Shown here: positions 1,841 to 32,518 of the stretch, in pieces
Layout of the letters: each line of letters starts with the position of its first letter
How positions within the stretch are numbered: position 1 is the stretch's first letter
From: Clostridia bacterium
Lineage (GTDB): Bacteria > Bacillota > Clostridia > Christensenellales > Borkfalkiaceae
Assembly: GCA_017886575.1 (NCBI GenBank)
Contig: JAGHJP010000051.1
Span: 1-47,131 of the forward strand
Length of the DNA stretch: 47,131 nucleotides
Direction: 5' to 3'
Translations under genes and position numbers: made by a program
The notes under the pieces: model-generated
The model's input: only the letters and a program-made list of their open reading frames with translations
Database searches by the model: none
What the model was told of the DNA's origin: nothing

Positions 1841-1880
1841 GGCATGCCCCTATTCTTTTACCCGTTCAACGCGGGCATGG
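1841..1880. repeat. CATGCCCG-family intergenic repeat unit
   Basis: GGCATGCCCC (1841-1850) faces GCGGGCATGG (1871-1880), giving CATGCCC/GGGCATG arms around a 24-nt loop. The same two half-elements in the same order occur at 21870-21950. It lies between galK and the M50-like gene. Confidence 0.6.
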
Positions 1881-1954
1881 GTTCATATCGTTTTTTAACG
1901 CGAAAGTACATATCCGCCTCTTTCCCCTCTTTCCGCCTTCCGCAATAACGCGCG

Positions 1955-3138: not shown

Positions 3139-5523
3139 TCATATACATTCATACCCTTGTTTGTTCCCCCGCACTTTTATCTCCGTCTCTCCCCGCAGCC
3201 TGCCGTCCGTCGCCGTCACGATGACCGCGGAAGCGTCTGCGGACGCCCTGACGACCGCCATCGCCTCGCCGTAATAGGTGTCCGTTTCGTCCGTCATGTA
3301 GCCGCGTTCGTTGTAGGGGCACGCGCAGCCGAGCGCCAAAAGCTCGCCGCCCGCCACGCTGACTTTCAGGACGCCCCGTTCGAGCGGTTTGACAGTGCCC
3401 GCCGCGTCGGTATAGCGCAGACGCACGAAACACAGCCCGCCCCCTTCGGTCGTTTCCCTTTCGGGCGCGACGGAAAGCACGGTCTCCTCCCCCGCCGTGC
3501 GCAGGGAATTGCGCGACAGTTCTTTCCCGTTTTCGTCCAGGGCGACCGCCGTCACCTCGCCGCCGCGATACGTCGTGCGGAAAACGAAACAGCAATTTTT
3601 TCCGCGTTTCTTTCTGCCGACCCGCTTGCCGTTGATATAGAGTTCCACAGCGGGCGCGCGGGAATACACCTCCACCCGCGCCTTTTTCCCGTCCAGCCCG
3701 TTCCACGACCAGGACGGGCGCGCGTTGGAAAATTTCCACGCCGACGGCGAGTGCTTTTCGTCCGTATTGCCGACAGGCACGACGGCGATCTGCGGCACGT
3801 CGGTGAGGCCGAACGCCACGCGGGTGTATGCCGCCTCGCCCAGCGGGTTCCCGAGAAGGTCGAGCCTGCCGCTGCCCGCGCTGATCCAGCCGGGACCGTG
3901 GCGGAAATCGGGCGCATACTCTTTATATTCCCAGGCGCCCACGCCGACCTCGCCAAGGTAGTCCATGCCCGCCCAGACAAAGTCGCCGATTAGCGCGGGG
4001 TGTTTTTTGGCGATCTCCATAAACCGACAGGCGTCCGAACAGAACGTTTCGCTGCCCAGGATCACCCGGCCGGGATATTTCTTCAGATCGCCTTCATAGC
4101 GGAGAATGCCGTAGTTATACCCCGCGACGTCCATCGCCGCATAACAGCCGCGCGTCTTTCTGTCGCAGCCGGGCAGCTTTGCCATGATCTTCATGAAATT
4201 TGCCCCCAGCCGCCCCGCAAGGTCGTTGAAAAATTCGCTGCCCACCTTTTTTTGCGGGTTCTCGCGCGCTTTTTTGTCGGTATACACGCCGAAACCGAGA
4301 GCGTGCAGGTAGTTGAAAAAGATGTTGACGCCCGCCGTCACGGGGCGGTCGGGGTCGAGTTTTTTGCAGACCGCGCGCATCTTGCGGAAGAATTCTATCC
4401 CCTTTGCCTGTCCCGTTTCGGCGACCTCGTTGCCGAGGGAGTACATCACGACGGAGGGGTGGTTGAAGTCCTTTTCGATCATGTCCGTTATGTCGCGCTC
4501 GTACCATGCGGGAACATAGTCGGCATAGTCGTACATGGTCTTGTGGATGTACCACATGTCGACGTATTCGTCCATCATCAGCACGCCCAGCCGGTCGCAG
4601 GCACGGAGCATGGCCTTGGAGCAGGGATTATGCGCGCTGCGCACGGCGTTGTAGCCCGTCTCTTTCAAAAGGCGTATCTTGCGCTCCTCCGCCTCTTCGA
4701 AGCACCGCGCGCCGAGGATGCCGTTGTCGTGATGGATGCACGCCCCCCGCAGGATGACCCGCGCGCCGTTGATGCAAAACCCGTTTTCCGCGTCGCACGA
4801 AACCGTGCGTATGCCGAACGTTTCCGTGACTTCGTCGCCGCCGAAGCGGGCGGTGCAGGTATAGAGATTCGGCTCTTCGGGCGACCAAAGCGCGGCATGC
4901 GGCACTTCGACGGCGAACACCGCCTCCCCGTCGCTCTCCGCAGTCACGGACGCGGCCGAAACGCCCTCCCGTTCCACGGACAGCCGCACCTCCCCGGGCT
5001 CGCTCGTCCGGACGCGGACTTCCACTACGGCAGGGTCGATCGTCAGGGTGCGGATGCGCACGCCGTTCAGAAGGATGTGCCGCCGCTCCTGTACGAACAT
5101 GGTCACGGGACGATAGATGCCCGCGCCCGAATACCAGCGGCTGTTGGGCTGATCGGCGTTGCGCGCCGTGACGCGGACCGTATTCTCTTCGCCGCAACGG
5201 AGGAACCGACTCACGGGGACGAAAAAGCCGATATAGCCGTACGGGCGGGACATCGCCTTTTCGCCGTTGATATACACTTCGGCGTTGCGGTAAACGCCCT
5301 CGAATTCCAGCGTAACCACTTTATCGGCAAAATCGGACGGCACGAAAAAAGTCTTTTCATACACATAGTCGTGCCCTTCGAACCAGCCCGTGTTCGTACC
5401 GCCGTCGCTCTCCGCCGTGCGTTTCTCTCCGATCATCGCGTCGTGCGGGAGCGTGACGTCCGACCACGCCGCATCCTCCGCGCGTCTCCATTTCCAGCCG
5501 CGATTGAAATCGAAAACCTTCAT
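3139..5523 (-). CDS. glycoside hydrolase family 2 beta-galactosidase
   Basis: A 794-residue GH2 enzyme predicted to hydrolyse terminal beta-galactosides. An N-terminal sugar-binding jelly roll (about 1-150, with YRNAEVYINGEKA and RWYSGAGIYRPV) precedes an Ig-like domain and a TIM barrel. The acid/base is Glu366 in SLGNEV and the nucleophile is Glu492 in LGSETF. After the barrel comes a DUF4982-type Ig-like module (WSWNGLDGKKARVEVYS). No signal peptide, so probably cytoplasmic, acting on imported oligosaccharide. The ATG at 5523 has AGAGAGGA upstream and starts the GH2 consensus; longer in-frame extensions upstream run through the promoter. The galK neighbour supports galactoside as substrate, but beta-glucuronidase or another GH2 specificity cannot be excluded by reading. 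Confidence 0.88.
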   Translation of the reverse strand: MKVFDFNRGWKWRRAEDAAWSDVTLPHDAMIGEKRTAESDGGTNTGWFEGHDYVYEKTFFVPSDFADKVVTLEFEGVYRNAEVYINGEKAMSRPYGYIGFFVPVSRFLRCGEENTVRVTARNADQPNSRWYSGAGIYRPVTMFVQERRHILLNGVRIRTLTIDPAVVEVRVRTSEPGEVRLSVEREGVSAASVTAESDGEAVFAVEVPHAALWSPEEPNLYTCTARFGGDEVTETFGIRTVSCDAENGFCINGARVILRGACIHHDNGILGARCFEEAEERKIRLLKETGYNAVRSAHNPCSKAMLRACDRLGVLMMDEYVDMWYIHKTMYDYADYVPAWYERDITDMIEKDFNHPSVVMYSLGNEVAETGQAKGIEFFRKMRAVCKKLDPDRPVTAGVNIFFNYLHALGFGVYTDKKARENPQKKVGSEFFNDLAGRLGANFMKIMAKLPGCDRKTRGCYAAMDVAGYNYGILRYEGDLKKYPGRVILGSETFCSDACRFMEIAKKHPALIGDFVWAGMDYLGEVGVGAWEYKEYAPDFRHGPGWISAGSGRLDLLGNPLGEAAYTRVAFGLTDVPQIAVVPVGNTDEKHSPSAWKFSNARPSWSWNGLDGKKARVEVYSRAPAVELYINGKRVGRKKRGKNCCFVFRTTYRGGEVTAVALDENGKELSRNSLRTAGEETVLSVAPERETTEGGGLCFVRLRYTDAAGTVKPLERGVLKVSVAGGELLALGCACPYNERGYMTDETDTYYGEAMAVVRASADASAVIVTATDGRLRGETEIKVRGNKQGYECI

Positions 5524-6906: not shown

Positions 6907-6924
6907 GCGCAGGCATGCCTGCGC
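6907..6924. repeat. GCGCAGGCATGCCTGCGC perfect palindrome
   Basis: An 18-bp perfect palindrome between the sugar transferase and glycosyltransferase genes, centred on GGCATGCC. It shares GCGCAGG(G)CATGCC with intergenic sites near 12877 and 21866. Confidence 0.65.
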
Positions 6925-6934
6925 TCTCTTTCCT

Positions 6935-7870
6935 TTACTCTCCGCTTCTGTCAAAGAGGACCATGTATGCGCCTTTGAAAATGATCTTCAAGTCCAGCCC
7001 GGCGCTCTGGCGGGCGATGTAGTCCAGATCCAGCCTGACCCATTCCTCGAAAGGGATATCGTTCCGGTTCTTCTGTATCTGCCACAGGCAAAGCAAGCCG
7101 CCCTTCACGTCGAAACGGTGCAACTGTTCGACGGTGTACTCCTTCACTTCGTCGGGAAGCGCCGGACGGGGCCCGACCACGCTCATGTCCCCGCGGATGA
7201 TGTTCAAAAGCTGCGGCAGTTCGTCGCAACTGGTCTTGCGCAGGAACTTTCCGAACTTGGTGATGCGCGGGTCGTCCTTCATTTTGAACACGGGCGGATC
7301 CGCCTCGTTCAGTCCCGCTTCGATCAGCTGCGCCTTCATTTCCTCGGCGTTCGGAACCATCGAACGGATCTTGAACAACTTGAATTCCTTTCGGTTTTTA
7401 CCCACCCGCGTGGAAGTGTAGACGGGATTGACGAACCGCTTGCCGCCCTTCTCCTTCTTCACGGGCGTCAGGCTGCAATCGAAGGCGACACCGTCCTTTC
7501 TGATGATGCGCGTCACACCCTTTCCCGCGGGCATGCTATCGTCCGCACGTTCGATGTGCAATTCATACCGGGGGTGACGGAAGTCTTCCGCCCACTTAAT
7601 GAAGAGGCAGAGCAAGATCAAAGGCGAAAGAACGATGAGCATCAAAGTTGCGGATACGATGTCAAACGTCCGCTTGCAGAATTTATACAGGGCGTGCCCG
7701 ACCCCTTTCCGCTCATAAGATTGCCACGCCTGCCGCGGCAAAGCCTGTGCGGGAGCGGGCGCATATCCGGCATTGACATCCGCCGCATCCATGTCCGCGC
7801 CCAGCGCCGCCCCGGCATCTGCCACGGCGATCTCCTCGCGTATATCCTTTTCCGTTTTATTCTCCATCAT
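6935..7870 (-). CDS. bacterial sugar transferase (polyprenyl-phosphate glycosyl-1-phosphate transferase)
   Basis: A 311-residue initiating transferase that loads a sugar-1-phosphate onto undecaprenyl phosphate to begin exopolysaccharide synthesis. A variable, acidic and alanine-rich cytoplasmic tail of about 60 residues comes first. The membrane hairpin RTFDIVSATLMLIVLSP follows, then the catalytic domain with KIRSM, DDPRITKFGKFLRKTSCDELPQ and MSVVGPRP. This is the short, single-anchor form. The ATG at 7870 was chosen for GGGAGAG 5 nt upstream; an adjacent ATG at 7867 is possible. It is the first gene of a two-gene operon with the glycosyltransferase and has a leader of about 350 nt. Confidence 0.9.
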   Translation of the reverse strand: MMENKTEKDIREEIAVADAGAALGADMDAADVNAGYAPAPAQALPRQAWQSYERKGVGHALYKFCKRTFDIVSATLMLIVLSPLILLCLFIKWAEDFRHPRYELHIERADDSMPAGKGVTRIIRKDGVAFDCSLTPVKKEKGGKRFVNPVYTSTRVGKNRKEFKLFKIRSMVPNAEEMKAQLIEAGLNEADPPVFKMKDDPRITKFGKFLRKTSCDELPQLLNIIRGDMSVVGPRPALPDEVKEYTVEQLHRFDVKGGLLCLWQIQKNRNDIPFEEWVRLDLDYIARQSAGLDLKIIFKGAYMVLFDRSGE

Positions 7871-8223
7871 GTTTTCTCTCCCGTAAGTTCTTTTTTGTTG
7901 CCGCCATGGCATGCCCCCCGGGCTCATGCACGCCGTCCGCGATCAAAAAAATAAAAAATTTGCCCCTCTCGGCCGGATGGACAAAATAACAGCTTTCCCC
8001 TCGGATTTGAGGGGCGCCTTCGCTTTTTTGTATTGAGTTTTGCCGCGCTCCTGCAATTTCATTGCCTTGCCTGCTTCCTACCCATACATAGTCTTTTTTC
8101 GGCCGTTCGGCATAAACGGGTTCATGCCCGCAATTATTTTCGGCTCCGCAAATTTTTTCTCTCGTCAAGCGTCGGTAAAAGAGCCTTTCAAAAGTATATT
8201 TCTTAATATTACAATACTTTGAT
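7871..8223 (-). ncRNA. long structured leader of the sugar transferase operon (candidate attenuator)
   Basis: From the promoter at 8230-8258 to the start codon there are about 350 nt with no convincing gene. The minus-strand RNA can form a GGCTC/GAGCC closing stem, a CGGG/CCCG hairpin and a CCCCTC/GAGGGG hairpin (about 7999-8016). A downstream GAGAGGGGC segment can compete for the same CCCCTC and is followed by AAATTTTTTATTTTTTT, like an attenuator terminator. The leader contains one CATGCCCGC and one GGCATGCCCC repeat unit. I could not match it to any riboswitch class I know. Confidence 0.4.
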
Positions 8224-8229
8224 GGCTAC

Positions 8230-8258
8230 ATTATATCATCTTTTCGGCGGATAATCAA
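8230..8258 (-). promoter_or_regulatory. promoter of the sugar transferase operon
   Basis: Minus strand: -35 TTGATT, 17-nt spacer, -10 TATAAT. Confidence 0.7.
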
Positions 8259-8712
8259 GTAATTCGCACAAATTTCTCGGCCGACTTTCGACTTTTCTCT
8301 GACAAATTCTGTCTTTTTCGGGTATTTGGACGTAAATTTAACAATTTTTGCGGCAAAAAATGCGGTTCATTTTGTTTTTCCGGCAAACGGCCGCCGCATG
8401 CCCGCGCCGAAGTTTTGCATCGCTTCATCGAAACGCATCCGTTTCACACCCATGCCCGCATTGTTCATATAAAACATTATCCACCAATCCGTAAGTCGGT
8501 TTTTCCCTTTCACGCGGGCATGGTATGGGGTTTTTAACGCTTTCCCCTTGTAACCGTTTGCTGCTGTTTCCCTCTTTTTTCGGGCATGCCCCGCCTCTAC
8601 CGACGTTTTCGTTCCAGAGAAAGAAGTTTTCGCGGCACATATAAAGTTACGGGTCAGAAAAGATGTTTACAGCTGAAAATTCTTCGTTTCGATGCGGCAA
8701 ATGCCCGCATTC
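8259..8712. other. gene-free repeat-rich stretch
   Basis: About 450 bp with no supportable gene on either strand. Short open frames here have unnatural composition and no ribosome-binding sites. It is AT-rich at 8259-8375, then holds a cluster of CATGCCCG-family units. It lies between the promoter of the sugar transferase and the terminator of the truncated esterase, both on the minus strand. Confidence 0.55.
8397..8592. repeat. cluster of CATGCCCG-family repeat units
   Basis: CATGCCCGC at 8397-8405 and 8451-8459, its complement GCGGGCATG at 8514-8522, and GGGCATGCCCC at 8582-8592; ATGCCCGC follows at 8701. This is the densest group of the element in the window. Confidence 0.65.
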
Positions 8713-8733
8713 AAAAATGCCGCGGCGCGGCAT
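8713..8733 (-). terminator. terminator of the truncated esterase
   Basis: Minus strand: ATGCCGC-GCC-GCGGCAT followed by TTTTG, starting about 10 nt after the esterase stop. Confidence 0.6.
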
Positions 8734-8742
8734 CCCTTTTTC

Positions 8743-9216
8743 TCATTCAAATACATTCAACCCATTTGAGCCGCCGTACAACCATACCATGACGGGCGCG
8801 TTCTGCGCGCCTTCGGGCGCCCATATGTTAAGGTTCTGGCAGTTGTTATCGTATTGTACCCCCGAGACCCATGCCCCAAAATCGCCCAAAAAATTGGATT
8901 GCATGGAAGAAGGCCCGTATTCAGTGGCGTTTTTTACGCCTTCCCACGGCTCCACCTCTTCGGCGGGCTGAAAAAGTTTTGTAGCCCTTGCATATTCCAC
9001 GCCGAGAAAGTTATAAACGCCGTTATTTTCCCGCCCCTGCAATGTGCCTTTATCCGTCTGAACTACGGCGTTCGCCGTGATCTCGCCCAGCTGGCGGGCG
9101 GGCGCGGTGAAATGGCGCAGGACAAAAAATCCGGCTATGGCAAAAACAATTATTGCCGTCAATACGATAGAAACCGCCACGATCACTTTCTTTTTCGTTT
9201 TACTCTTTTCCGCCAT
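8743..9216 (-). pseudogene. truncated type-B carboxylesterase
   Basis: A 157-residue product. A Lys-rich start and one membrane anchor (about 11-32) precede the N-terminal part of a type-B carboxylesterase: TDKGTLQGRENNGVYNFLGVEYA, a FQPAEEVEPWEGVKNATEYGP stretch, then CQNLNIWAPEG and PVMVWLYGGSNG, the oxyanion-hole region. The frame stops five residues later. The catalytic Ser, Glu/Asp and His of the roughly 500-residue family are all missing, and no continuation is visible in any frame below 8743. The gene is probably a deletion remnant; a short secreted non-enzymatic product is less likely. It follows the flavodoxin and reductase genes, a grouping often seen with such esterases. Confidence 0.75.
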
Positions 9217-9254
9217 AAAATATTTCCTTATTCGATTACGCCCGGATCGCGCAG

Positions 9255-9423
9255 TTAGCTCGTTACATCGCTTTCGGATGCGCGCGAACGGAAGCCGTGT
9301 CCCGTCAGCCGGTTGCCCTCGCCCGCCATATCGGCGAGCAGCCTGCCGCTTTCACCCAAGCCGGAGCCGGAAGAAGTGCAGAACGGTACGACGGTTTTGC
9401 CGGTAAAGTCATTGCCCGTATTT
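9255..9423 (-). pseudogene. remnant of a second flavodoxin (C-terminal part)
   Basis: Directly after, and partly overlapping, the stop of the intact flavodoxin, another frame reads NDFTGKTVVPFCTSSGSGLG and continues to GHGFRSRASESDVTS before a TAA at 9255-9257. This matches the C-terminal half of a flavodoxin (GKT-V-PFCTSGGSG, then RRFSGSAS-DV). It has no start codon, ribosome-binding site or N-terminal FMN-binding half. A tandem flavodoxin gene has therefore lost its front part. Confidence 0.7.
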
Positions 9424-12049: not shown

Positions 12050-12838
12050 TCAGCCGAATACGACTTCGAGAGTCATCATCAGGGCGAAGCCGACCATGAC
12101 GCCCCAGGTGCCGAGGTGGGTGTGCTCGTCCAGCTTCGCCGACGGAATGAGATCCTCGGCGACGACGAAGATCATCGCCCCCGCGGCGAAGGACAAAAGC
12201 CAGGGCTGCGCCGCCGAGAGGTATGCTGCGAGGAAATAGCCGACGACGGCAAAGACCGGCTCCACCGCGCCGCTTGCCGTCCCGAACGCGAAGGCTTTGA
12301 GACGGCTGCCCGTCACGGGCTTCATGGGCAGCGCGACCGCCGCGCCCTCGGGCAGGTTCTGAATGCCGATGCCGACGGCGAGGGCGAGAGCGGAAACGAG
12401 CGCCGCGTCCGTGCCGAGCGTCGCCGCCGCACCGAAGGCAAACCCCACTTCCAGCCCTTCGGGGATGTTGTGAATGGTGACCGCGAGAAAGAATTTGACG
12501 GGCTTGGCGAGCGCGACGTCCGGTCCCTCCTCGCGGTTGGTGGCGGCGTGCAGGTGGGGCACGACTTTATCGAGCACGACGAGGAATATGCCGCCGAGCA
12601 GGAAGCCGCAGACGGCGGGGACAAACTTCCACGTGCCCCAATCCGCCGCCCCTTCGATGGAGGGAAGGAGCAGCGACCAGATGGACGCGGCGACCATGAT
12701 GCCCGCCGCAAAGCCGAGAAAGAGCGTGTTGAGTTTCGGCGATATATTGTCCTTGAACACAAAGACCAGCGCCGAACCCAGGGCAGTCATCAAAAAGATG
12801 ATGGCAAAGCCGAGAATGGTGACCAGAACGGGATTCAA
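12050..12838 (-). CDS. ZIP-family divalent metal transporter
   Basis: A 262-residue membrane protein of the ZIP family, which moves zinc, iron or manganese into the cytoplasm. Seven or eight hydrophobic helices are visible. Helix IV carries VTIHNIPEGLEVG and helix V IGIQNLPEGAAV, the paired HNxPEG metal-binding motifs. The loop between helices III and IV has HLHAATNREEG. An initiating TTG at 12838 is proposed: GAGGAGG lies 7 nt before it, while the only longer frame starts in a region with no ribosome-binding site. It lies between the HNH gene and the LysR gene, all on the minus strand. Metal specificity cannot be read. Confidence 0.9.
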   Translation of the reverse strand: MNPVLVTILGFAIIFLMTALGSALVFVFKDNISPKLNTLFLGFAAGIMVAASIWSLLLPSIEGAADWGTWKFVPAVCGFLLGGIFLVVLDKVVPHLHAATNREEGPDVALAKPVKFFLAVTIHNIPEGLEVGFAFGAAATLGTDAALVSALALAVGIGIQNLPEGAAVALPMKPVTGSRLKAFAFGTASGAVEPVFAVVGYFLAAYLSAAQPWLLSFAAGAMIFVVAEDLIPSAKLDEHTHLGTWGVMVGFALMMTLEVVFG

Positions 12839-12880
12839 TTTTATGCCTCCTCTTTTTCCTTTGTTTTGCCCGTCTGCGCA

Positions 12881-12899
12881 GGGCATGCCCGCGATGAAC
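12881..12899. repeat. CATGCCCG-family unit before the ZIP gene
   Basis: GGCATGCCCGC at 12881-12891 followed by GATGAACGGGC. GCCCG and CGGGC form a small hairpin around CGATGAA. Compare the GCCCGCGTTGAACGGG form (minus strand) at 1861-1877. Confidence 0.5.
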
Positions 12900-12919
12900 G
12901 GGCAAAGCGACGCAGTGTT

Positions 12920-13426
12920 TTATTTCGTTCCCCCGCCGTTTTCCCCCGCTTCGGGGAGCGGCGGGCCGCCCGCGCGCGGCGCGGAAAAGTGCTCTTTGAG
13001 CCAAGAGATGTCCAGCCGCCACTCGCCGATGCGGTTGCGCCTTCGATGTTCCTCGTTTGCCCTGCCGAGGGCGGCGCGGTAGGCGGCGTAATTACAGCCG
13101 TTGACCCGCATGAACCAATCCGCAGCCTCCTTTTCGCCGCCCATGAGCTGCGTCCTGCCGATGTGGATGACGGCATGGCACTGACGGCAGACCGCCACGA
13201 CGTCGGTCAGCTTCTGGATGCGGGCGGCCTCGTCGTATGCCCAACGTTCGTGCGCTTCCAGCCGCTTCACCGCCCTGCCGCAGATCATGCAGCGGCCGCC
13301 TGCGCGGGCATAGGCGTCCCGCCGCACGGCGTCCCAATACTGCGGTTTTAAGACCGAACGCAGGTTGCTGTACCAGCAGCCGTCGGGGACCAATTCAAAA
13401 TCGAGCTTGTATTTTTTTCCGTCCAT
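12920..13426 (-). CDS. HNH endonuclease-domain protein
   Basis: A 168-residue protein. The centre has a zinc-ribbon HNH core: CMICG (about residue 46), LEAHERWAYDE with the HE pair, and CRQCHAVIHIGR, supplying four cysteines and the HNH histidines. The N-terminal 40 residues (FELVPDGCWYSNLRSVL) and the C-terminal part (W-x-LDISWLKEHF) look like the small stand-alone HNH proteins common in Firmicutes, whose targets are mostly unknown. GGGAGAGGAAC precedes the ATG. No restriction, phage or intron context is visible, so a housekeeping or orphan nuclease is all that can be said. Confidence 0.8.
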   Translation of the reverse strand: MDGKKYKLDFELVPDGCWYSNLRSVLKPQYWDAVRRDAYARAGGRCMICGRAVKRLEAHERWAYDEAARIQKLTDVVAVCRQCHAVIHIGRTQLMGGEKEAADWFMRVNGCNYAAYRAALGRANEEHRRRNRIGEWRLDISWLKEHFSAPRAGGPPLPEAGENGGGTK

Positions 13427-15745: not shown

Positions 15746-16726
15746 TCAGCGGACGGAATTTTCGCGCAGGACGGTCAGGCGACGGCGGAAGGGATAGCGG
15801 GCGAGGACCTTTCCGCCGAGGTCCTCCCGCCGCATGTCGACCGCGCGGACGGCGGGATCCTCGTAAGTCGAATAGTAATAGACGCCCGCGTCGGCATTGC
15901 AGCAGGCGGAATAAATCGTTACCTCATACCCCTCTCCCGCGGCGGCGCACCCGCGGGGCTGAGAGACGAAGCCGAGAATGTGGAAAAACTGCGCGACGCT
16001 CTCCGCCTCGCCGGAGCCCGAAACGGCGTTGCGGGCGGCAAACGCCGCGCGCACGAAGCGGGAAGAAGAGGAGAGGTCGCCGGGCAGCCCCAACGCGCCC
16101 ATGCCGCGGCTGTACGCCCGCAACGGCAATTTTCGGGAAAAGGTATTTTTCGGTTCACGCGGGGAGAGCCCCATGAAGTCGTTCAGGCGGAACATCTGCA
16201 CGGGGAAGGGCGGTTCGTTGGTGAGCACGCCGACAGGATTTTCGTACAGACGCATTCCCTCGCCGGTGCATTCCAGCGTGACCGCCTCCTTGCGGTCGGC
16301 TATGAGCCAATGCAATTTGGCGGGGGGCATGCCCGCGTTGTACGGCTCATCGAGTACGGTTATGTTTTGCAAGGCGGCGGCTGCTTCGCGCACGGAGGCA
16401 CAACTTCCGAGCAAGTAGGGAATGAACTCGAACTGCGCCAGCCCGACTTTGTCCCCCTCCCCTTTGCCGTAAAAGGCGCTGCCGACGAAATTCAGCCCCG
16501 CGGCGCACAGCCCCTTTTCGTTGACGGCGTCATAATAAAGCGGAAATCCGTCCGGCACAAACGCCGTGCCGATCATGGCATAGTGCTCCCCCGCCTGCCC
16601 CGCATGGCGGAAGGAAAAGGGAAAGCGCCGCGGCGTTACCACGACCTCCTCGCCGTAAGACACATCGTTGTCGAGCGTCCGCCCGAAGTAAAAACTTTTC
16701 GTCTTATAACAAACCGCCGTACACAT
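15746..16726 (-). CDS. bsh: bile salt hydrolase-type choloylglycine hydrolase
   Basis: A 326-residue Ntn-hydrolase that would split glycine or taurine from conjugated bile salts. The start at 16726 puts the nucleophile at Cys2 (MCTAVCY), exposed after Met removal; GGAGGA lies 7 nt upstream. An in-frame ATG two codons earlier would bury the Cys. Other expected residues are present: Arg16 and Asp19 in FGRTLDND, Asn in AAGLNFVGSAFY, Asn170 in LTNEPPF and Arg in SSRFVRAAF. The VGLAQFEFIPYLLG stretch is close to Firmicutes bile salt hydrolases. Cytoplasmic, no signal peptide. Penicillin V acylase and N-acyl homoserine lactone acylase are relatives, so the substrate is probable, not proven. Confidence 0.85.
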   Translation of the reverse strand: MCTAVCYKTKSFYFGRTLDNDVSYGEEVVVTPRRFPFSFRHAGQAGEHYAMIGTAFVPDGFPLYYDAVNEKGLCAAGLNFVGSAFYGKGEGDKVGLAQFEFIPYLLGSCASVREAAAALQNITVLDEPYNAGMPPAKLHWLIADRKEAVTLECTGEGMRLYENPVGVLTNEPPFPVQMFRLNDFMGLSPREPKNTFSRKLPLRAYSRGMGALGLPGDLSSSSRFVRAAFAARNAVSGSGEAESVAQFFHILGFVSQPRGCAAAGEGYEVTIYSACCNADAGVYYYSTYEDPAVRAVDMRREDLGGKVLARYPFRRRLTVLRENSVR

Positions 16727-18401: not shown

Positions 18402-20483
18402 TTATGCCTTCTTGCCGCGCTTGGCGATGATCTCCTCCGCGACCGAGCGGGGCACTTCGGCATAGTGGTCGAACTGCATGGTGAACTGCCCTCTGCCCTG
18501 CGTTCTCGAACGCAGGTCGGTGGCATAGCCGAACATCTCGCTCAGAGGCACTTCGGCGTCGATGACCTTGGCGCCGCTCCTGTCGTCCGTGCCGACGATG
18601 GTGCCGCGGCGGGAGGACACGTTGCCCATGAGGTCGCCGAAGTAGTCTTCGGGCGTGACGATCTCCACCTTCATGATGGGCTCCAGCAAAACGGGCTTCG
18701 CGGTAGCCATGCCGTTCTTGAACGCCATGGAACCCGCCACTTTGAACGCCTGTTCGGAGGAGTCGACTTCGTGGTAACTTCCGTCGTAGACGACGACCTT
18801 GAAGTCCACCACTTCATAACCGGCGAGATATCCATTCGCCGCCGCCTCGCGGATGCCCTTGTCGATGGCGGGAATGTATTCCTTGGGAATGGAACCGCCG
18901 ACCGTGGCGTCCTCGAAGACATAGCCCGAACCGGGCTCTCCGGGGATGAGGTGGATCTTGCAGTGACCGTACTGCCCTTTACCGCCGGACTGGTGCTTGT
19001 ACAGCCCTTCGGCGTCGACGGCGTTGCGGAAGGTCTCGCGGTAAGCGACCTGCGGCGCGCCGACGTTGGCTTCGACATGGAATTCACGCAGCAGGCGGTC
19101 GACGATGATGTCGAGGTGCAGCTCACCCATGCCCGCGATGATGGTCTGACCCGTTTCGGCGTCCGTCCACGTCTTGAACGTGGGATCCTCCGCCGCAAGT
19201 TTGACGAGGCCTTCCACCATCTTCTCCTGCCCCGCCTTGGTCTTGGGTTCCAGGGAGAGCTGGATGACGGGTTCGGGGAACTCCATCTTTTCGAGGATGA
19301 TGGGATGGGCGGAGTCGCACAGCGTGTCGCCCGTGGTCGTGTATTTCAGACCGACGATGGCGCAGATGTCGCCCGAATAGACGGTGTCGATGTCCTTTCT
19401 CTCGTTGGCGTGCATCTGCACGAGGCGGCCGACGCGCTCCTTCTTGTCCTTGGTGGAGTTATAGCAGTACGAACCGGACTGCAGATAGCCCGAATAGCAA
19501 CGGAAGTAAGCGAGGTTGCCCACAAAGGGGTCGGTGGCGATCTTGAACGCCAGCCCGGAGAAGGGCTCCTCGTCGGACGTTTTGCGGATCTCTTCGGCGT
19601 CCGTGTCGGGGTTGACGCCCTTCACGTGGTCGACGTCGAGAGGGCTGGGCAGGTAATCGATGACGGCGTCCAAAAGGAACTGCACGCCCTTGTTTCTGTA
19701 AGACGAACCGCACAGCATGGGAACGATCTCGATGGCGAGCGTTCTCTTTCTGAGGCCCTTTTTGATGTCCTCGGGAGAGAGGTCGCCCTGGTCGAAGAAC
19801 TTCTCCATGAGCTCGTCGTCGGCTTCCGCCGCCGCTTCGACCATCTTCGCGCGATATTCGTTGGCGAGGTCGAGCATGTCCTCGGGAATGGCTTCCTTGC
19901 GGAAGTCCTTGCCGAGGTCGTCGTAGTAAATTTCCGCCTCCATGTTGATGAGGTCGATGATGCCGCGGAAGGTGTCTTCCTTGCCGATGGGCAGTTCGAT
20001 GGGGACGGGGTTAGCGCCGAGGCGCTCTTTGATCATCTTTTCGACGTTGAAGAAGTTGGCGCCGTTGATATCCATCTTATTGACGTAAGCGATGCGGGGG
20101 ACGCGGTAAGTGTCCGCCTGACGCCAGACCGTTTCGGACTGGGGCTCCACGCCGCCTTTGGCGCAGAACGTGGCGACCGTGCCGTCGAGCACGCGCAGGG
20201 AGCGTTCGACCTCGACCGTGAAATCGACGTGTCCCGGGGTGTCGATGATGTTGAAACGGTAGCCCTTCCACTGACAGGTGGTCGCGGCGGAAGTGATGGT
20301 GATGCCGCGTTCCTGTTCCTGTACCATCCAGTCCATGGTGGCGGCGCCTTCGTGCACTTCGCCGATCTTATGCGTCTTACCCGTGTAGAACAGGATGCGC
20401 TCGGTGGTCGTCGTTTTGCCGGCATCGATGTGCGCCATGATGCCGAAGTTTCTGGTATGATATAAGTCAAATTCTCTGGGCAT
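18402..20483 (-). CDS. fusA: elongation factor G
   Basis: A 693-residue translocation GTPase of the usual length. Domain I has G1 [12 protein letters not shown], switch [12 protein letters not shown]3 DTPGHVDF and G4 NKMD. Domain II contains the [10 protein letters not shown] region. Domain III/IV segments include [24 protein letters not shown] and [13 protein letters not shown] (domain IV). Domain V ends with [20 protein letters not shown]. Positions around the fusidic acid pocket look unremarkable by eye. TGAGGAG precedes the ATG. It follows rpsG by 16 nt, so the two are cotranscribed. Confidence 0.98.
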
Positions 20484-21192: not shown

Positions 21193-21564
21193 TTACTTGG
21201 GGCGTTTTGCGCCGTACTTGGAGCGCGCCTGCTTGCGGTTGGCGACGCCTGCCGTATCGAGCGCGCCGCGCACGATGTGATAACGCACGCCGGGCAGATC
21301 CTTAACACGTCCGCCGCGGACGAGCACGGAGCTGTGCTCCTGCAGGTTGTGACCTTCGCCCGGGATGTACACGACGCCTTCCTGCTTGTTGGTCAGGCGG
21401 ACGCGCGCGATCTTACGGAGCGCCGAGTTGGGCTTCTTGGGCGTGGTGGTCGTCACGGACAGACAGACCCCGCGCTTCTGCGGACAATTGTCCAGGATAG
21501 GGCTCTTGGACTTGTAGGTCTGTTTCTCTCTGCCGTATTTGATCAGCTGATTGATGGTGGGCAT
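21193..21564 (-). CDS. rpsL: 30S ribosomal protein S12
   Basis: A 123-residue decoding-centre protein. The start is [22 protein letters not shown]. The conserved loops [11 protein letters not shown] and [15 protein letters not shown] carry the lysines (K42/K43 and K88 in E. coli numbering) whose change gives streptomycin resistance; both look wild type. AAGGAGGTAAAAA precedes the ATG. It is the first gene of the str operon. Confidence 0.98.
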
Positions 21565-21729: not shown

Positions 21730-21967
21730 ACGAATTGCACAAAAAAATCGGCGGGAACGCAAAAAAATTTTTGCCGTACCCGCCGTTTTCTCCTTTTTTC
21801 CGCGCCTTTGCCCCCGCGGCGCGAAAGCGCGGGGCGGACACGGGGCGTCCCTTTTTTGCTTTCCGCGCAGGCATGCCCCTCTCTTTTCCCTTCTCCGCCG
21901 CCCGCGGACCTTGCCGCAAAAGGCATTTTTCCGCAAAAATGCGGGCATGGGTGCGGGAAGGGGCGCG
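21730..21967. other. GC-rich gene-free spacer
   Basis: Between the str promoter and the end of the TVP38-like gene; no gene seen. Two members of the CATGCCCG family lie at 21870-21879 and 21941-21950, arranged as at 1841-1880. A CCGCAAAAATGCGG hairpin overlaps the second, and a GCGCGAAAGCGC hairpin lies near 21820. No clear terminator with a T run was found for the TVP38-like gene. Confidence 0.5.
21870..21950. repeat. CATGCCCG-family repeat pair
   Basis: GGCATGCCCCTCTCTTTT begins at 21870 and GCGGGCATGGGT at 21941. The first copy at 1841-1880 reads GGCATGCCCCTATTCTTTT and GCGGGCATGGGTT, so the two loci look related over both halves. Confidence 0.6.
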
Positions 21968-22864
21968 TCAGTCCTTTTTCTTACGGAAGAAAAGTTTTTC
22001 GACGAGGGCGTAGATCCTTTTGTTGAACACCACGCCGAGAACGCCGAGAACGAGGAACACGCCGAACACGATGCCCGCGGCGACATAATTCCCTTCGAGC
22101 AGGGCCTCGACGGTAAACGTGGAACTGACGACGGACGGAATGCGGGCGATGGAAGAGACGATCATGAACTTCCACATCTTCACGCGGGTGAGCGGAATGA
22201 AATAGATGAGAATGTCCTTGGGGATGCCGGGAATGAGGAAGATGAAGAAGAGCGCGACCAGCGCGCGGTCGGGGTCGTTGAGTATTTTCAGGTATTTGTA
22301 TTGCTTTTGGCTGACGTTCTCGCGCACGTATGCCCCGCCCAAAAGGCGCACCAGCCCGAAGATGACAAGCGTGCCGATGTTCAGCCCGACCAGGCAGAGG
22401 ACCAGCCCGCCGAACGTGCCGTAGAGCGCGCCGCTCGCAAGTTCGACGATCTCGCCCGGGATGAACGCCACGACGACCTGCAAGATCTGTATGAGCAGGA
22501 GAATGAGCACGCCGACGAACCCCGTGCCGCGCAACCTTTCGATGAATTCGTTCCGCCCTTCCGGCGTGCCCAGATATTGAAAATCGTCGTAGAAATACAC
22601 GAATATAAAAATGAATACGCCGAGCAGCAGGACGGCGGCGACGATGTTGACGACGATGTTCGCCCTGTGCGCGCGGCGGGATCTTTTGCCGTCCCCTTCC
22701 GCGGGCGCCCCTTCCGTCCCTTCCGCGGGCGCGGAGCCGCCTTCCGTTTCCACGCTCTCCGGTGCGCTTGCCGCGTCTGCCGCGCTTGCCGCAGGTTGAG
22801 CGCCCGCCTCGTTTTCCCCGCCTTCCGGCGGACAATTTTTTTTCTCCTCTTCTTCGGTTCCCAT
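21968..22864 (-). CDS. TVP38/TMEM64 (VTT-domain) membrane protein
   Basis: A 298-residue protein. The first 75 residues are cytoplasmic low-complexity sequence rich in Glu, Ala and Pro. A membrane segment (about 80-100) is followed by the VTT/SNARE-associated core: VVAFIPGEIVELASGALYG, GLNIGTLVIFGLVRLLGG, and a second half with FIFLIPGIPKDILIYFIPL and SSIARIPSVV. Five or six membrane segments in all. DedA/VTT proteins are linked to lipid scrambling and undecaprenyl phosphate recycling; the exact substrate here is unknown. The Ala/Glu/Pro-rich tail is unusually long. It has its own promoter and runs divergently from pgk. Confidence 0.87.
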   Translation of the reverse strand: MGTEEEEKKNCPPEGGENEAGAQPAASAADAASAPESVETEGGSAPAEGTEGAPAEGDGKRSRRAHRANIVVNIVAAVLLLGVFIFIFVYFYDDFQYLGTPEGRNEFIERLRGTGFVGVLILLLIQILQVVVAFIPGEIVELASGALYGTFGGLVLCLVGLNIGTLVIFGLVRLLGGAYVRENVSQKQYKYLKILNDPDRALVALFFIFLIPGIPKDILIYFIPLTRVKMWKFMIVSSIARIPSVVSSTFTVEALLEGNYVAAGIVFGVFLVLGVLGVVFNKRIYALVEKLFFRKKKD

Positions 22865-27003: not shown

Positions 27004-27034
27004 TCCGGCATTCCGTTTTTGAAAAGACGAGGCA

Positions 27035-27044
27035 CCCATGCCCG
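27035..27044. repeat. partial CATGCCCG-family unit
   Basis: CCCATGCCCG within the gpmI-degV spacer. A GC-rich hairpin (CCCCGTGCGC/GCGCGCGGGG, about 27054-27080) follows. Confidence 0.4.
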
Positions 27045-27117
27045 AGAAAAGCCCCCCGTGCGCACTATTTGCGCGCGGGGATCCTTTACGCGCGTCCGGC
27101 CCGAACATTCCGATACG

Positions 27118-31810: not shown

Positions 31811-32518
31811 TTATTGACAGGCATGGATGGCTTCTTTCAGGTCGATCGCGCCCGTATAGATGCTCCTGCCCAGAATGGCGCCGTACAGCCCTGCCGCCTT
31901 GATTTTCATGAGATCGTCCAAAGAGGCGATGCCGCCCGATGCGATGACGGAAAGCCCCGTCTTTTCCTGCATTTTACGGCTCTCCTCCACGCTGGCGCCC
32001 TGCATGGCGCCGTCCTTGGAAATGTCGGTGAACACGGCATAACAAACGCCCATGCCCGCGGCTTTGCGCCCGAAGGATTCCGCCGTGACGTCCGCCGTTT
32101 CCGTCCAGCCCTTGATGGAGAGCAAGCCGTCCTTTGCGTCGATGCCCGCAACGATCTTTTCGCCGTATGCCGCCACGAGCGCGGCAAACAGTTCGGGGTC
32201 GGTGTAGCACACGGTGCCGAGCACGACGCGCGCCGCACCCGCCTCGAAGCGGTCCTTTACATCCGACGCCCGCCGCAGTCCCCCGCCCGATTGGACGGGC
32301 ACGCCGAGGCGCGCGATCTTTTCCAGCGTGCCGTTGATATGGCTGCCGCCGTCGAACGCGCCCGACAGGTCGACGACGTGCAGAAATTCCGCGCCGCAGT
32401 CTATCCACTCCTTCGCGCGGTCGACGGGGTCGCCGTAGTCGGTCGCCTTATCCTTTTTACCGTAGAGAAGGCGCACCGCGCGCCCTTCCAATATATCGAT
32501 GGCGGGAAATAAGATCAT
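31811..32518 (-). CDS. hisA: ProFAR isomerase
   Basis: A 235-residue TIM barrel paralogous to His[18 protein letters not shown] holds the catalytic Asp, [13 protein letters not shown] the phosphate loop, and [14 protein letters not shown] the second Asp. Normal length. The ribosome-binding site is CAGGTG shortly before the ATG; the gene follows hisH after 33 nt. Confidence 0.97.

Follow-up and report, generated by a model that had tools for sequence, protein, structure and literature searches.

A genus-restricted, highly iterated DNA word with symmetric phased flanks in uncultured Clostridia: a possible site for a chromosome protein

What kind of element is the short G/C-rich word that recurs along a contig of an uncultured Clostridia bacterium? 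The window (the whole stretch of DNA analysed, 47,131 nucleotides) is contig C15 of a source genome of 1.53 Mb (G000; 61 contigs, 92% complete), whose neighbours at the protein level, among them Candidatus Protoclostridium and Candidatus Borkfalkia, are MAGs of uncultured Clostridia. An earlier note on this DNA had described a dispersed, mostly intergenic repeat family and had offered three readings of it: a mobile miniature repeat, a site for a chromosome-organising protein or a conserved RNA element. Here, four sister species of the same genus (G001-G004) were compared with G000 from sampled stretches, all five genomes being MAGs that are 91-96% complete. Context counts for G000 rest on a sample of 638 kb, i.e., 42% of the genome, with genes called on MAG contigs by a simple home-made, self-trained finder. 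Intergenic expectations were taken from a third-order Markov null and coding expectations from a synonymous shuffle.

In the window, CATGCCCGC has 13 exact matches against 1.0 expected, a number reached in 0 of 100 shuffles, and GGCATGCC has 10 against 1.03. All seven non-coding positions previously given for CATGCCCGC were recovered, with 12884 replacing 12883, and its further matches lie at 3964, 7527, 16328, 19128, 32051 and 37329; those of GGCATGCC include 1841, 6912, 7908, 8583 and 21870. The sites are the following.

12861..12909, plus strand: strongest site of the window, GGGCATGCCCGC core with CATGCCC at 12884-12890 and the palindrome GGGCATGCCC at 12881, both halves extended (TTTTGCCCGT...GGGCATGCCC...AACGGGCAAA); held-out PWM total 30.5, flanks outscoring virtually every background position; spacer between genes 12050-12838 (minus) and 12920-13426 (minus)
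8563..8608, no strand: palindromic core GGGCATGCCC at 8582-8591 with extended flanks, 7928-9421 spacer; held-out PWM 27.6 (minus strand), flank percentile 0.001
8497..8542, minus strand: extended site with CATGCCCGC core at 8514-8522 (TACCATGCCCGCGTGAAAGGGAAAAACCG); held-out PWM 22.1, flank percentile 0.001
21924..21969, minus strand: extended site ACCCATGCCCGCATTTTTGCGGAAAAATG, core 21941-21949; held-out PWM 25.6, flank percentile 0.002; upstream of gene 21193-21564 (minus), ribosomal protein S12 family
21852..21898, plus strand: site AGGCATGCCCC, core 21872-21878, with GGCATGCC at 21870; held-out PWM 20.8
1854..1899, minus strand: site ACCCATGCCCGCGTTGAACGGGTAAAAG, core 1871-1879, with partner CATGCCCC at 1843-1849 (plus); inverted-repeat pair with 8448-8479; held-out PWM 19.1
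27017..27062, plus strand: intergenic site ACCCATGCCCGAGAAAAG, core 27037-27043; held-out PWM 21.4, flank percentile 0.009
8397..8405, plus strand: exact CATGCCCGC core with weak flanks, 7928-9421 spacer; PWM 18.8
8451..8459, plus strand: exact ACCCATGCCCGCA core with weak flanks, same spacer; PWM 17.8
8123..8131, plus strand: exact CATGCCCGC core with weak flanks, same spacer; PWM 14.3
6911..6920, no strand: near-site GGCATGCC with diverged ends (AGGCATGCCT); PWM 14.1
7908..7916, plus strand: near-site GGCATGCCC where the Bac_transf gene 6935-7927 (minus) begins
16308..16353, plus strand: coding site GGGCATGCCCGC (16325-16336), in-frame in gene 15746-16726 (minus); held-out PWM 28.6, flank percentile 0.002
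19125..19136, plus strand: coding site ACCCATGCCCGC in gene 18402-20483 (minus), in a conserved EF-G-like peptide of 11 residues with codons GCG GGC ATG GGT
32051..32059, plus strand: coding site CCCATGCCCGC in gene 31811-32491 (minus); held-out PWM 24.2

The 7928-9421 spacer also holds an open frame of 157 aa (8743-9216, minus strand) whose match to the carboxylesterase family PF00135 is confined to the N-terminal portion of that family. This frame is probably a decayed gene, which would make the spacer partly pseudogene.

The excess extends far beyond the window. Across the whole of G000 there are 398 copies of CATGCCCGC, compared with 25 of its reversed-letter control, and 144 sites of the palindrome GGGCATGCCC, compared with 0. 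In the 638-kb sample, CATGCCCGC occurs 50 times in spacers (4.0 expected) and 107 times in genes (41.3 expected), GGGCATGCCC at 21 intergenic sites against 0.3 and 28 coding sites against 6.5, and ACCCATGCCCG 15 times against 0 and 14 times against 0.8, respectively. The intergenic density is thus well above the Markov null; the spacer bias that the earlier note claimed is real, but genes are enriched too, and since the coding excess goes beyond protein sequence and codon usage, the label of an intergenic repeat is too narrow. Sites of the CATGCCC type come at about one per 1.35 kb and are present on every sampled contig, with an uneven density (0.05-0.72 per kb) and near-Poisson spacing in which long gaps are somewhat too few. 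Per kb of spacer, CATGCCC reaches 2.0 between convergent genes, 1.28 between tandem genes and 0.53 between divergent ones, so promoter regions are avoided. Orientation bias relative to genes or strand is weak. Taking the direction of most genes as a stand-in for that of replication, 34 intergenic copies run against it and 23 with it, far from the strong replication orientation of a Chi/KOPS-type motif.

The word turned out to be the centre of a larger and very regular structure. Intergenic CATGCCCG was counted 75 times against 5.4 expected, while nearly all of its one-base variants stay at or near background; the sole clearly enriched one is CATGCCCC (25 vs. 3.6), and the final base of the 8-mer is therefore looser than CATGCCC. 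Around the core, an alignment of 188 intergenic sites (G000, G001 and G004) shows A/T peaks at -20/-19, -11/-10, +10, +13/+14 and +20 to +23. Over a background of about 0.47, the A/T fraction rises to 0.74-0.81 (-20, -11/-10, +13) and to about 0.7 (+20 to +23). Weaker blocks appear near -31 and +35, with G/C troughs in between. The blocks are symmetric around the CATG dyad, at about 12 and 21 bp and, weakly, 33 bp from it, or roughly a helical turn apart. Palindromic sites were entered in these profiles on both strands; rerun as a check with non-palindromic sites alone, the pattern was found separately in those of G000 and in those of G001 and G004, as it was in coding sites, and the sites of G002 repeat it. 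Three of four control words had no phased flanks, and the fourth, CATGCC[AGT], gave a weaker version of the pattern, which fits the behaviour of weak sites, as its matches presumably are. Counted about the CATG dyad, the consensus half-site is CATGCCCGCRWnnAAnGGnnAAWWCG (CATG-CCC-GC-R-W-nn-AA-n-GG-nn-AAWW-CG), with base-specific GG and CG steps, and the opposite half either matches well (GGGCATGCCC) or is degraded (ACC/GCC/TAC/ATC-CATGCCC). When the window was held out of training, a PWM still placed the flanks of its copies well above background (16 intergenic, z=6.1; 20 coding, z=4.7). No repeat unit reaching much past about +/-25 bp was found at the word copies. The flanks quoted in the earlier note do exist, but what the copies truly have in common is a base composition phased with the helix over ~46 bp instead of a long alignable repeat.

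Inside genes, the copies arise through synonymous codon choice that builds the word. The Gly codon GGC makes up 0.87 of Gly codons ahead of ATG, compared with 0.63 overall, and the Ala codon GCG 0.93 ahead of GGC-ATG, compared with 0.51. In small numbers, C|ATG|CCC is retained in G001 in 20 of 24 cases (55% for control contexts) and in the word-free G003 in 5 of 14 (28% for control contexts); the same retention test on GGC|ATG gave no extra conservation.

Four of the five species (G000, G001, G002 and G004) carry the word, with 144, 125, 50 and 72 copies of GGGCATGCCC, respectively, against 4 in G003 (reversed control 0 to 2). G003 is without the word in its spacers as well, where CATGCCC is at background (2 vs. 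3.4 expected), and G002 favours a variant of its own, CATGCCCGA, together with ACCCATGCCC. Among 247 genomes drawn across the order, a draw that excluded the sister species G001, G002 and G004, no other genome exceeds 35 copies of GGGCATGCCC, and stretches, up to 22 kb long, of published relatives fetched by the product of window gene 3139-5523 were not clearly enriched. A literature search on GGGCATGCCC returned, among the matches listed, p53 response elements and primers and no bacterial repeat. The 14-bp palindrome was widespread in viral contigs among the matches listed, although the query is short for such a scan. Overall, the word is a real, genus-restricted and highly iterated DNA site. 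Following the sites through the spacers of related genomes revealed that they are kept in particular places: where the G000 spacer has a site, relatives carry one in 13 of 24 orthologous spacers (3.2 expected by length), and where it has none, in 0 of 131 (9.8 expected; pooled set, permutation p<0.0001). Part of this retention comes from shared ancestry; nevertheless, the flanks in these spacers often cannot be aligned and some of the sites have changed orientation, which suggests maintenance as well.

Symmetric phased flanks of this kind would mark a nucleoprotein site at which the DNA is bent or wrapped. We therefore favour, with a probability of roughly one in two and from sequence evidence, the reading that the word is the core of a ~46-bp site for a putative DNA-bending or DNA-wrapping chromosome protein, iterated hundreds of times. 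A putative dimeric or multimeric chromosome-associated protein would read the G/C core and, in successive major grooves one to two turns out, the GG and CG steps, while the A/T-rich blocks (near +/-12 and +/-21 bp, with a weak pair near +/-33 bp) would let the minor groove narrow, so that the DNA might bend or wrap. Such sites could serve as distributed anchoring points along the chromosome, tolerated in genes by means of synonymous codons, retained in certain spacers and held out of divergent promoter regions. Among the three readings of the earlier note, the chromosome-organising one fits best, given the palindrome-like core, the symmetric A/T blocks, the presence on all sampled contigs, the depletion in divergent spacers and the retention in orthologous ones; ParB, the one chromosome-site protein checked against the distribution of the word, does not fit. 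ParB is single-copy and also found in word-free G003, and the word differs from parS (TGTTTCACGTGAAACA), which is present in canonical form and as a one-mismatch copy in G002 (L211, 4425 and 4595), about 3.4 kb from parB. The parB genes of G002 and G001 (L341, L342, position 1960) write the conserved peptide SGHAR as TCG GGG CAT GCC CGY, creating the palindrome, and G000 parB has one mismatch where these two carry the word.

One may venture further, and only tentatively, to a new chromosome-packaging system of this gut Clostridia genus, in which one putative protein would act at hundreds of exact 46-bp sites, bending or wrapping the DNA and shaping synonymous codons, and would be missing, along with the sites, from one sister species. 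Other exact words found throughout a genome, Chi and the uptake sequences for instance, have been signposts to important DNA transactions, and to our knowledge HIP1 is still without explanation. In the present case, the anatomy of the site (dyad, phased flanks, base-specific contacts) is unusually informative, and the on/off contrast between sister species means that comparing them should reveal the cognate protein. Together with the retention in particular spacers, this makes the function directly testable.

The same marks, namely an exact core, phased A/T tracts and placement in both genes and spacers, would be left by an uptake or transfer signal that molecular drive had spread. The word could be an analogue of the Neisseria DUS or Haemophilus USS, its copies accumulated by biased uptake or transfer and recombination. 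An over-represented exact short core with rare variants, hundreds of copies with little strand bias, species variants such as that preferred by G002, and a gene for a ComEC-type channel all agree with this. However, ComEC was all that was found of a type IV pilus or transformation machinery in these MAGs (91-96% complete): the T2SSE-type pilus/transformation ATPase (PF00437) is below cut-off in 5 of 5 genus genomes, while 14 of 14 control genomes are positive, which disfavours uptake of the DUS/USS type. Moreover, the A/T tracts of USS lie on one side, whereas the flanks here are symmetric. The resemblance to the H. influenzae USS, whose core is flanked by phased A/T tracts (PMC7811141), keeps this explanation in view, and a transfer machine of some new kind could conceivably be at work, but we consider it unlikely.

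Less probable again is an iterated palindrome like HIP1, made and kept by a DNA methyltransferase with linked repair, as modelled by Elhai 2015 (PMC4390886). As with HIP1 and alternate HIPs, a GC-rich palindromic core is over-represented genome-wide in coding and non-coding DNA and is patchy within the genus. The extensions of HIP1 are, however, short palindromes, and the available text describes no phased flank of 46 bp (PMC4390886). In addition, where the word abounds, no cognate methyltransferase was found among the families searched: m5C (PF00145), N6/N4 (PF01555) and D12 (PF02086) are absent from the word-bearing G001 and G002, which speaks against the HIP1 model. A HIP1-containing decamer, GGCGATCGCC, occurs in genes of the G000 sample 26 times against 7.2 (synonymous shuffle) and is absent from its spacers.

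We regard as very unlikely that the copies are preferred sites of DNA gyrase or another type II topoisomerase, symmetric about a 4-bp centre and with wrapped flanks. The dyad at such a centre and the phased A/T and G/C flanks do suggest wrapping, but in the E. coli gyrase motif, which spans about 130 bp, a 36-bp centre separates two periodic arms of 47 bp each (PMC12393610), while the phasing here is confined to about +/-35 bp around an exact core. Gyrase is also general, yet the sister species G003 lacks the word.

A regulatory element, be it a transcription-factor site in promoters, a terminator or an RNA leader, is slightly less credible still. Of all words in spacers it is the most enriched, and its half-sites CCCG...CGGG could fold into a small hairpin; on the other hand, it is depleted in divergent promoter spacers, its strand bias is weak, and genic copies have the same flanks. 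Sites fall on either side of intrinsic terminators about as chance predicts, with no positional preference, and there are 0 Rfam matches in the window at the gathering score. The conserved RNA element of the earlier note is not supported on these grounds. Among the most enriched spacer words of the G000 and G003 samples is also GTGCTATAAT, of the extended -10 promoter type TGnTATAAT.

Finally, descent from a mobile miniature repeat or a REP element, suggested by the dispersed, spacer-enriched and partly dyad copies and by a broken IS200-type Y1 transposase near one of them (contig C50), is barely credible, because the word does not track Y1 (Y1 finds no match in G001, with 337 copies of CATGCCCGC, and is intact in G003, with 43), in-frame copies are made by synonymous codons within conserved genes, and neither a longer unit nor the discrete alignable unit of a MITE with terminal repeats and target duplication was found. 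The broken transposase (L028, 16560-16960) has a hairpin end, AACCACCGGTGAACCGGTGGTT, and adjoins one word copy. G001 has a separate, larger repeat (L093, L099, L082), with copies about 230 bp apart (e.g., L093 2892 and 3125; L099 10252 and 10487), which reads TTGCAAAGGGAG...TTTGCC...GGGTGCGGGAACGGCGTTCCCGC, followed by AAGGGGC-GCC-GCCCCTT and CAAGGGAC...GTCCCTTG hairpins.

Set beside known systems, the word resembles REP/BIME elements with RAYT transposases in being dispersed, spacer-biased and dyad symmetric, and differs from them by its independence of RAYT, its coding copies built from synonymous codons and the lack of a longer repeat unit. With the E. coli gyrase Topo-Seq motif it shares a periodic flank composition that indicates wrapping, although that motif is degenerate over 130 bp (PMC12393610) and the present site is compact (46 bp) with an exact core. 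The cyanobacterial HIP1 (GCGATCGC) and alternate HIPs (PMC4390886) are likewise short GC-rich palindromes in hundreds of copies in genes and spacers and patchy among close relatives; the word departs from them in its long phased flanks, its spacer bias, the full palindrome in only part of the copies and the lack of correlation with the three methyltransferase families. USS and DUS (PMC7811141, PMC3630211) match it in the exact core, a similar order of density, between-species variants and, for USS, A/T tracts by the core, and are set apart by the two-sided symmetry of our flanks, the pilus ATPase below cut-off and the Clostridia lineage. Like matS/MatP and parS/ParB sites, the word is a palindrome-like exact chromosomal site kept at particular places; unlike them, it has hundreds of copies spread over all sampled contigs and not over a single domain.
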